Assembly: GCA_902785355.1 (NCBI GenBank)
Contig: CACZYF010000018.1
Location: forward strand, 1-33,753
DNA length: 33,753 nt
Source: an uncultured Ruminococcus sp.
GTDB taxonomy: Bacteria > Bacillota > Clostridia > Oscillospirales > Acutalibacteraceae
Direction: 5' to 3'
How positions within the stretch are numbered: the first letter of the stretch is position 1; each line of letters begins with the position of its first letter. Under the pieces are notes generated by a model. The model was given only the letters and a program-made list of their open reading frames with translations, did not search any database and had not been told where the DNA came from. Positions 30,777-33,674 of the stretch are shown piece after piece. The position numbers and the translations under genes were made by a program.

Positions 30777-32471
30777 ATGACAGAAGAAAACAAGATCGTG
30801 GAGAATAAGGAGGAGATGTCCTCTAACTTCATCCACACCATGATAGAGAAGGATATCGCCGAGGGCGGCGATTACTACGGGATGAAGGTACACACGCGCT
30901 TCCCACCCGAGCCCAACGGCTATCTGCACATCGGTCACGCGAAGGCGATCTGCATCGACTTCGGCACCGCGCTGAAGTTCGGCGGTATGTGCAACCTGCG
31001 CATGGACGACACCAACCCCACCAAGGAGGATGTCGAGTTCGTCGACGCCATCAAGGAGGATATCCACTGGCTGGGTTTTGACTGGGAAGATCGCTTCTAC
31101 TACGCGTCCGAATACTTCGACAAAATGTACGAGAGCGCTGTCGAGCTGATCAAGAAGGGGCTCGCTTACATCTGTGAGCTCACGCCCGAGGAGATGCGCG
31201 AATACCGCGGCGATCTCTCTACCCCCGCGAAGTCCCCTTACCGCGACCGACCCATCGAAGAGAGCCTCGCGCTCTTTGAGAAGATGAAGAACGGCGAGGT
31301 CGAGGAAGGAAAAATGACCCTGCGCGCGAAAATCGATCTTGCATCCGGCAACTTCAACATGCGCGACCCGGTCATCTACCGCATGAACCGCCTGCATCAT
31401 CACCGTACCGGCGACAAGTGGTGCATCTACCCGATGTACGACTTCGCCCATCCGATCGAGGACGCGATGGAGGGAATCACCCACAGCCTGTGCTCGCTCG
31501 AGTTTGAAGATCACAGACCGCTGTATGAGTGGGTCATCAACAACGTCACCCTGCCGAGCAAGCCGCGCCAGATCGAGTTCGCGCGTCTCGGCATCAACAA
31601 CACCGTCATGAGCAAGCGCAAGCTTAGAGCGCTGGTCGAGGGCGGTACCGTCAGCGGCTGGGACGATCCGCGCATGCCTACCCTGTGCGGTCTGCGCAGA
31701 CGCGGCTACACCCCGAAGTCGATCCGCAACTTCTGCGACCGTATCGGCGTGAGCAAGGTCAACTCCACCGTCGAATACGAGTTCCTCGAGCACTGCCTGA
31801 GAGAGGACCTCAACCTCACCGCACAGCGCGTGATGGTCGTGCTCGATCCCGTCAAGCTCGTCATCACGAACTATCCCGAGGGTCAGAGTGAGAGCTTCAC
31901 GGTCGAGAACAACCCGAACAATGAAAACGACGGCACCAGAGAAGTCACCTTCTCCCGCGAATGCTGGATCGAGCGCGGCGACTTCATGGAGGAGCCGATC
32001 AAGAAGTACCAGCGCCTGTACCCCGGCAACGAAGTGCGCCTCAAGAGCGCCTACATCGTCAAGTGTACCGGCTGTAAGAAGGACGAGAACGGCAACGTCG
32101 TCGAGGTCTACGCGGAGTACGATCCCGAGACCCGAGGCGGCAACACTCCCGACGGCAGAAAGGTACGCGGCACCATCCACTGGGTCGACGCGAGCAACTG
32201 TGCCGAGGCGACTTGCAACCTGTACGACAACCTCTTCACCGTTCCCGATCCCGAGGCAGACGGCAGAGATTTCATGGAGTTCGTCAACCCCGAGTCACTG
32301 AAGGTCGTCGAGGGCTGTAAGGCGGAGAAGGGACTCGAGAACTTCTCCTTCCCCTCCTACTTCCAGTTCATGCGCACCGGCTACTTCTGTTTTGATAAGG
32401 ACAGCAGCGCCGATAAGCTGATCTTCAACCGCTCCGTCAGCCTAAAGGACGGCTTCAAAAAAGTAAAGTAA
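30777..32471 (+). CDS. glnS: Glutaminyl-tRNA synthetase
   Basis: The protein has 564 residues and charges tRNA-Gln with glutamine. Class I motifs: [16 protein letters not shown] with HIGH at 51-54, the catalytic-domain MDDTNPTKE, and the KMSKS-equivalent VMSKRKL near residue 278. Family segments LRREDLN-like [15 protein letters not shown] and the C-terminal anticodon beta-barrels ([19 protein letters not shown]) are complete. The start is ATG 30777, since GAGGG (30765-30769) is 7 bases away; the earlier in-frame ATG at 30771 is 1 base from it. The last ~230 bp are duplicated at 33402-33631. No terminator follows this copy, whereas one follows the duplicate, which suggests that the 3' region was rearranged. 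Confidence 0.96.
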
Positions 32472-32561
32472 GAAGCTTCAAACAGCACCCCCGATTAACA
32501 GACCATAGAAATTATGCGGCGGAATCAATCATGACAATAAAACAGAAAGGTGCTACTGATT

Positions 32562-33398
32562 ATGAAAAGTATTAAAATAACTTACAAGATTATCTCCCTC
32601 ATCTTAACTTTGCTGATGACGGCAGCGTTGCTGACCTCATGCGGCGGCGCCTCTTCCGACACCGATACCCCTGCAACCGGCGATGCGAGCAGTACATCAG
32701 GCAGCGCATCCGGCGAAAACACCCTGTCGATCCAAAGCCAAAAGGTCGTTGATTCTCCCGAATGGTTCACAAAGCTCGACGCGTCTAAAGACTGCGAGCA
32801 GCTGATCGTCGTAGCAGGCGTAGGCGAAACCACCTGCTATGTCAGTATGCACGAAAAGGATACCGACGGAAAGTGGAAGATGATCCTTCAGGCGCCCGGC
32901 TATATCGGGCTCGAGGGGATGGGCAAGGCAGACAGCTACCACGCCATCACCCCGATCGGCACCTTCACGATCGACAAGGCTTTCGGCATCGCGGACGATC
33001 CCGGCTGCCAGATGGAATACACGAAGGTGACCGAGGACGATTACTGGTCGGGCGATATGCGCGAAGGGATGCACTTCAACGAGTTTCTTAACATCAAGGA
33101 TGTTCCCGAGCTCAATATCGAAGACAGCGAACACCTCATCGACTATACCTACGAGTATCAGTATTGTCTGAACATGGGCTACAACAGCGAGTGCGTACCC
33201 GGGGAGGGATCCTGCTTCTTCTTCTACTGCATGAGCCTTGTCAAGCCCTACACGGGTGGCTGCGTCGCGGTGAACGAGGCTGTCATGAAGGTCATCATGC
33301 AGAAGGTCAGGGATGGCTGCAAAATAACCATCAACAAGGCGGATGCTCTCGGCATAGATCTTAACGAAGCTCGCGACTTCGCCAACAAAAATGTATGA
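32562..33398 (+). CDS. Lipoprotein with L,D-transpeptidase (YkuD-like) catalytic domain
   Basis: The protein has 278 residues. Its lipoprotein signal has lipobox LLTSC, with the lipidated Cys at 27, then a Ser/Thr/Gly-rich linker to about residue 55. The C-terminal domain resembles the YkuD/L,D-transpeptidase fold: YHAITPIGTFTIDKAFGI, and the catalytic Cys 234 in TGGCVAV. This family cross-links peptidoglycan stems or links proteins to them. At the position where relatives have a catalytic or structural His (FFHC-like), this protein reads CFFFYC with Tyr 222, so activity is uncertain. The start is ATG 32562, with AAAGG about 11 bases upstream; a GTG at 32550 is in frame but overlaps that site. 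It is sandwiched between glnS and a duplicate of the glnS 3' end. Confidence 0.82.
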   Translation: MKSIKITYKIISLILTLLMTAALLTSCGGASSDTDTPATGDASSTSGSASGENTLSIQSQKVVDSPEWFTKLDASKDCEQLIVVAGVGETTCYVSMHEKDTDGKWKMILQAPGYIGLEGMGKADSYHAITPIGTFTIDKAFGIADDPGCQMEYTKVTEDDYWSGDMREGMHFNEFLNIKDVPELNIEDSEHLIDYTYEYQYCLNMGYNSECVPGEGSCFFFYCMSLVKPYTGGCVAVNEAVMKVIMQKVRDGCKITINKADALGIDLNEARDFANKNV

Positions 33399-33401
33399 TA
33401 C

Positions 33402-33631
33402 CCGTTCCCGATCCCGAGGCGGACGGCAGAGATTTCATGGAGTTCGTCAACCCCGAATCGCTGAAGGTCGTCGAGGGCTGTAAGGCAGAGAAGGGACTCG
33501 AGAGCTTCTCCTTTCCCTCCTACTTCCAGTTCATGCGCACCGGCTACTTCTGCTTTGATAAGGACAGCAGCGCCGATAAGCTGATCTTCAACCGCTCCGT
33601 CAGCCTGAAGGACGGCTTCAAGAAGAAATAA
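33402..33631 (+). pseudogene. Duplicate of the 3' end of glnS (truncated)
   Basis: From CCGTTCCCGATCCCGAGGC onward, 33402-33623 matches 32239-32460 with about 9 mismatches in 222 positions by eye, all transitions and all but one synonymous (one Asn-to-Ser change). The reading frame is open and ends KDGFKKK plus TAA, against KDGFKKVK in the intact gene. It codes only for the end of the anticodon-binding domain and cannot be a synthetase. An ATG at 33395 overlaps the stop of the transpeptidase-like gene (ATGA), so a 78-residue peptide could be translated by coupling. The strong terminator at 33641 belongs to this copy. Confidence 0.88.
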
Positions 33632-33640
33632 TATAAAGTC

Positions 33641-33674
33641 ACTCCCGAAGTCCGATACTTCGGGAGTCATTTTT
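33641..33674 (+). terminator. Terminator after the duplicated glnS end
   Basis: ACTCCCGAAGT (33641-33651) pairs perfectly with ACTTCGGGAGT (33657-33667) around CCGAT, followed by CATTTTT. It is probably the ancestral glnS terminator. Confidence 0.9.

Follow-up and report, generated by a model that had tools for sequence, protein, structure and literature searches.

How does a single gene come to lie between two copies of the end of an essential gene, with no mobile element visible beside it? We address this question for a stretch of 33,753 nt from an uncultured Ruminococcus sp. (hereafter the window, meaning the whole stretch, which is the entire contig 18, CACZYF010000018.1, of a 73-contig assembly, GCA_902785355.1, referred to as G000). 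Near its right-hand end the 3' part of glnS, the glutamine–tRNA ligase gene, occurs twice on the + strand, on either side of a gene (hereafter the cargo gene) whose product seems to be a lipoprotein bearing a YkuD-type L,D-transpeptidase domain. We favour, with moderate confidence, an insertion with long target duplication that proceeded through homology in glnS and needed no dedicated recombinase. The event would most likely be of an already known type, a recombination accident, of which glnS offers a further instance, with recurrence at one gene with different cargo.

The glnS locus and its empty counterpart

The intact glnS (30771–32471, 566 aa) carries the three Pfam domains of class-I E/Q synthetases (tRNA-synt_1c, tRNA-synt_1c_C and tRNA-synt_1c_C2). 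A repeat search pairs 32239–32461 with 33402–33624 at 96% identity: nine of the 223 sites differ, each by a transition, and one of these (repeat position 103) changes Asn to Ser, much as had been described in an earlier note made from the sequence alone. Position 221 is the first and only site at which the difference between copy 1 and copy 2 agrees in this genome and in that of a sister species (below), and we therefore set the duplicated tract at 220 nt. Copy 1 (32239–32458) lies within the working gene and starts at codon 490, while copy 2 (33402–33621), to all appearance the displaced native end, still matches tRNA-synt_1c_C2 and keeps its reading frame open until a stop at 33629–33631. 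The copies are separated by an inserted segment of 943 nt (32459–33401), in which the cargo gene (32562–33398, 278 aa) is the sole sense-strand open reading frame (ORF) of at least 80 aa lying wholly inside. The segment holds no integrase, recombinase or transposase ORF, the missing integrase having already been remarked upon in the earlier note, and no inverted repeat of at least 25 nt, the length to which the search was limited, was found across 28000–33753; in both respects it differs from a transposon or insertion sequence. The final residues of the window glnS protein are encoded by the insert side, so that it ends in KKVK rather than KKK, and we infer an enzyme that is functional with two altered or added end residues.

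Terminator-like and promoter-like sites were sought by a consensus scan of the + strand. The sole strong terminator-like site, a hairpin of 11 pairs with a T-rich tail (33641–33667), follows copy 2, and the scan found no terminator-like site between the glnS stop and the cargo gene, in agreement with the claim that the truncated copy alone is followed by a terminator. No promoter-like site was detected between glnS and the cargo gene either. With neither kind of site between them and the old terminator closing the unit, the cargo gene is probably co-transcribed with glnS up to that terminator. If it is indeed read through from glnS, an incoming gene at this position gains a ready-made promoter and terminator.

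The site without the insertion is found in G042 (locus L199), which represents another species of the genus and not a conspecific strain. Here a terminator-like hairpin (read by eye) comes directly after the glnS stop, and behind it lie genes for an ECF-type sigma factor and a zf-HC2 protein, with no cargo. Window positions 33669–33752 match the G042 sequence directly behind its glnS at 84% identity, and the window ends within the start of an ECF-type sigma factor gene (33725–33753, + strand, cut by the contig end), which is complete in G042 and in the sister species and carries Sigma70_r2 and Sigma70_r4_2 domains (Pfam). Because the context of this empty site matches what follows copy 2, we take copy 2 and its terminator to be the native end, and the copy 1 tail together with the cargo gene to be the added DNA. 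The earlier note had supposed just such an insertion, displacing the native glnS end, or else a tandem duplication followed by gene capture, and had recommended a search for a relative with the terminator directly after glnS; G042 is such a relative. Among the 29 glnS loci of relatives that were examined, none has the cargo gene beside glnS, and the 943-nt segment finds no DNA match in them.

The same structure is present in G542, at locus L063 (GTDB contig CAMVDB010000004.1, titled as a metagenome-assembled genome (MAG) and by its coordinates contig 4 of G542). In a comparison of G542 with G000, 206 of 392 one-kilobase fragments align to the half of G000 that was covered (mean 93.2%, median 94.4%), and G542 is thus a sister species. 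Gene order is the same, with the same pair of sigma and zf-HC2 genes behind copy 2; the insert is the same segment with 11 differences; and the two G542 copies are 98.2% alike. In these two species the locus provides a clean example of how one gene can be gained beside an essential gene with no mobile element in sight, and of the scar left behind. The parts of such a scar (an intact gene, the cargo and a displaced tail) form a pattern that a program could look for, which would allow element-free gains of genes to be counted across uncultured gut bacteria.

Comparison of the copies and recurrence at glnS

Among the four copies of the two species, 11 of the 220 nt are variable. Window copy 1 has five private sites, window copy 2 has three, G542 copy 1 has three (in one serine codon) and G542 copy 2 has none, while within the 220 nt not a single site distinguishes copy 1 from copy 2 in both species. 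All four form one clade against nine of the 29 relatives (bootstrap 99), from which window copy 1 differs at 43–77 positions and window copy 2 at 42–77. The most parsimonious reading of these patterns would be that the duplication initially gave identical copies, which diverged later, or that the working copy 1 has since been exchanged with other alleles; a donor carrying the same or a nearly identical allele would fit as well. The earlier note had asked which copy is the nearer to the glnS of related strains, and the answer is that they are about equally distant. It had also named two signs of an old vertical duplication: the equal relation of both copies to outgroups was observed, and an arrangement common to all relatives was not.

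Divergence between G000 and G542 is uneven over the aligned region (window 22562–33753 against L063 1–11192). It amounts to 6.8% at 22.56–23.0 kb and 0.2–0.6% at 23–26 kb, and rises to 2–3% over gltX and glnS; at the insertion itself we count 37 differences in the 1468 nt of the glnS 5' part, 8/220 in copy 1, 11/943 in the insert, 3/220 in copy 2 and 0/132 after copy 2. This mosaic suggests recent exchange of DNA between both species at the locus, and the insertion may be common to them by descent or by such exchange.

A second event is found elsewhere in the genus. Using a 77-aa query, the glnS tail was detected in 152 of 161 congeneric genomes, and it occurs twice in three of them (G000, G542 and G547), a second tail being absent from the other 149. 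In G547 (locus L197, G547:C2, reverse complement 5192–7523), a 148-nt duplication (96%) starts at codon 532, extends 47 nt beyond the stop and includes the hairpin. It brackets an XRE regulator and an M23 peptidase; behind copy 2, and ahead of a short-chain dehydrogenase gene, come a glycosyltransferase and a further XRE gene. There is no integrase among the ORFs of the insert. With end points and contents of its own, G547 is a separate event, which brings the independent events at glnS to two. Other cargo at the same site, which the earlier note had proposed to look for, therefore does occur.

As a control, the tails of gltX, DAP dehydrogenase and inorganic diphosphatase were sought in the same 161 genomes and matched in 148, 101 and 49 of them, respectively. 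Five double matches were discarded from their coordinates alone: G006 (gltX) and G519 (DAP dehydrogenase) as neighbouring frame-split pieces, G541 (gltX) and G543 (DAP dehydrogenase) as pieces with one at a contig edge, and G534 (inorganic diphosphatase) as a paralogue in a full-length frame. With these set aside, no such duplication was seen in 298 gene–genome pairs. The difference between two events in 152 genomes and none in 298 control pairs is not significant and too small for glnS to be called a hotspot. According to a bolder generalisation, small cell-surface gene cassettes would dock repeatedly, and without a recombinase, at the 3' end of glnS in this genus, each bringing its own glnS tail and rebuilding glnS on arrival. 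They would thereby come under or beside the glnS promoter, with the old tail retained as a landing pad at which homologous recombination could remove or exchange them. We give this idea little credence.

Proposed route of insertion and competing explanations

We propose that an incoming DNA molecule would have carried the cargo gene behind the terminal 220 nt of glnS and would have entered by one homologous exchange in the glnS tail. It could have done so, for example, as a circularised fragment by a single crossover or, alternatively, as a linear fragment joined by homology at one end and illegitimately at the other. The outcome would be a whole glnS rebuilt ahead of the cargo gene, with the old 3' end and the native terminator left behind it; we infer both the DNA vehicle and the type of exchange. 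A homology route free of recombinase is favoured because a recombinase is missing from the insert, inverted repeats of the length sought were not detected and the two glnS events have different ends. In its favour, too, direct repeats bracket 3 of the 13 cargo ORFs tested (at least 65% identity), as against 3 among 513 other ORFs (Fisher 0.0002; leaving the window out, 0.005), and G058 shows a comparable arrangement at another gene (below).

Similar events are on record. Insertion with long target duplication goes back to work on Helicobacter pylori (Nobusato, Uchiyama, Ohashi, Kobayashi 2000, as cited in PMC1643837 and PMC3031569), where a gene absent from a relative is flanked by a long direct target duplication of variable length. 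The window likewise has a long direct duplication (220 nt, 96%) on both sides of the inserted gene. As these citing papers present them, the known cases are often tied to restriction-modification genes, by association and not as a requirement, whereas the cargo here would be a cell-wall enzyme; the window differs further in that here an essential gene has had its 3' end duplicated and is itself rebuilt. In Escherichia coli conjugation with cut plasmids, according to the account in PMC3240628, 56 of 60 clones gave a polymerase chain reaction product diagnostic for homologous-end duplication, and 14 sequenced clones had duplications of 109–950 bp, attributed to single crossover of circular molecules. 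A homology-anchored illegitimate event is proposed in PMC5361080 for Vibrio effector arrays. In these cases too, as far as the two accounts go, one-sided homology imports unrelated DNA, but unlike the window they are laboratory events or are inferred for secretion effector clusters. Classical homology-facilitated illegitimate recombination, again as these sources portray it, generally leaves a deletion, whereas the window shows a duplication.

Several observations weigh against this homology route. No donor with a glnS tail and the cargo gene but without copy 2 was found among the 161 congeneric genomes, and among the five that bear the cargo gene only G000 and G542 have a second glnS tail. 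No vehicle was found, and neither the cargo gene nor the glnS tail has a relative in viral_contigs. ComEC (PF03772) is matched in 4/4 genomes but also in 10/14 control genomes and therefore says little on competence; the pseudopilin model TIGR01710, a poor proxy for competence, is matched in 0/4. In the bracketing count given above, the control mixes core and accessory genes, and two of the three bracketed other ORFs (L197 and L200) come from loci added for their repeats; at L064 the bracketing repeat is a tRNA tail of 33 nt, perhaps the work of an integrase. Finally, no second case of a gene tail with an unrelated gene between its copies was recognised in the scanned 1.18 of 2.23 Mb of G000 (1,175,157 of 2,230,487 bases).

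Two rival explanations deserve consideration, though both are unlikely, and about equally so. In one, the arrangement would be the remnant of an element driven by an integrase, with a replacement glnS 3' end in its attP, the integrase having been lost or having acted in trans. A rebuilt target with a displaced fragment and cargo between them is the classic signature of genomic islands in tRNA gene 3' ends, as set out in the Islander paper (PMC4383910). Moreover, one cargo relative has an apparently island-like setting: in G021 (locus L204) it is found, together with a nucleotidyltransferase-like ORF (identified by eye), with tRNA-Leu immediately upstream and a 33-nt stretch of tRNA 3' sequence copied on the far side (9738–9770 and 11332–11364). 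Islands of this kind are, in that paper's terms, placed by an integrase at a fixed site, whereas neither the 943-nt insert nor the ORFs of the G547 insert include an integrase. The start points differ between the two glnS events (codon 490 versus codon 532, a weak argument as it comes from two events only), as do the end points (the glnS stop versus 47 nt beyond it), and none of the 149 other genomes with a glnS tail has a second one.

In the other, replication of the glnS end at a stalled fork would have jumped to a cargo gene elsewhere or on incoming DNA and then back to an earlier point in glnS, so that the tail was copied twice. Such template switching would account for initially identical copies, arbitrary end points and the absence of a vehicle, and little sequence is shared at the junctions. 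The nearest cargo relatives in G000, for which the entire assembly was searched, are on contigs 15 and 60 and only 47–50% identical, however, and a template within the genome was thus not seen.

The view taken in the earlier note, that a divergent glnS 3' end was imported along with the cargo gene from a related strain or species, fares worse, and we consider it very improbable. The differences between the copies are mostly silent, as it would predict, and the tract is common to the sister species with unusually high identity in places, so related lineages do exchange DNA here. Within the tract, however, no site splits copy 1 from copy 2 in both species; the shared difference at position 221 sits at its edge, and the four copies form a single clade at about equal distance to the nine relatives. 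An assembly artefact is hardly credible: both genomes are draft assemblies and the window contig stops 132 nt after copy 2, but the same structure, with private differences of its own, is present in a separate MAG of the sister species.

The cargo gene and its settings

In sequence the cargo protein falls short of a formal family assignment, with the Pfam YkuD model (PF03734) reaching E=0.0014 and 19.7 bits against a curated cut-off of 23.4. A sequence-profile search of solved structures returned five chance-level matches and nothing better. An AlphaFold2 model has a predicted local distance difference test score (pLDDT) of at least 90 at 179 of 278 residues and above 90 over most of residues 61–278. 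In a Foldseek search with this model, ranks 1 and 3–5 are Pgp2, YkuD and another L,D-transpeptidase, led by Campylobacter jejuni Pgp2 (6xj6) and Bacillus subtilis YkuD (4a1i), with E values of 4e-4 to 2e-2, one of them below 0.001, and TM-scores by query of 0.29–0.36. The predicted fold supports a YkuD-type protein and agrees with the description of the single gene between the copies as encoding an L,D-transpeptidase-like lipoprotein.

The likeness to YkuD-type L,D-transpeptidases extends to the lipoprotein-like start and to an invariant cysteine in a YTGGC motif (Cys234, present in 25/25 aligned proteins). The window protein differs from them, beyond its Pfam score, at position 222 (window 33225–33227), which is His in 24/24 relatives and Tyr here; the G542 protein, 98% identical, keeps His222. 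The residue adjoins Cys223. Cys234 and the His at position 222 would be the catalytic cysteine and its partner. With Tyr222 in place of an otherwise conserved His, the window allele may be inactive.

The distribution of the cargo gene is patchy: it is found, at E values up to 1e-100, in 5 of 161 congeneric genomes, and its surroundings differ. Relatives occur on 37 plasmid records, all below 60% identity, the best being on a Selenomonas ruminantium plasmid (49.5%, annotated as an L,D-transpeptidase family protein), and on four phage records with weak similarity. In Ruminococcus sp. YE71 (L071) a 73% identical relative is bracketed by 58-nt direct repeats (97%; 9719–9776 and 10834–10891), which sit just upstream of the next gene. 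In G058 (L200, G058:C43, 258–1660) the 3' end of a TetR-type gene is present in two 173-nt copies (86%) with a DUF1275 gene in between, and this arrangement adjoins a distant cargo relative.

Within the scanned part of G000, 2 of 435 ORFs of 200–400 aa had direct repeats on both sides within 1 kb (minimum 30 nt and 80% identity), namely the window cargo gene and one gene on contig 4. Inspection of the ORF tables by eye assigned the other repeat pairs to tandem paralogues, phage-like genes or intergenic repeats; automatic flagging also gave antisense and paralogue pairs, which were dropped, and the pairs at L190, L191 and L065 were left out.

Some minor features were noted by the way. On contig 4 of G000 (7422–8660) a 332-aa ORF that by eye resembles a tyrosine recombinase has an 82-nt intergenic repeat (88%) on either side. 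Between gltX and glnS, at about 30625–30745 of the window, inspection by eye suggests a dispersed repeat whose halves are inverted; it may be related to the repeat on contig 4. Long palindromic stretches, possibly small repeat elements, occur shortly after the glnS stop in three relatives (L006, 3193–3399; L008, 3203–3379; L011, 2888–3043).

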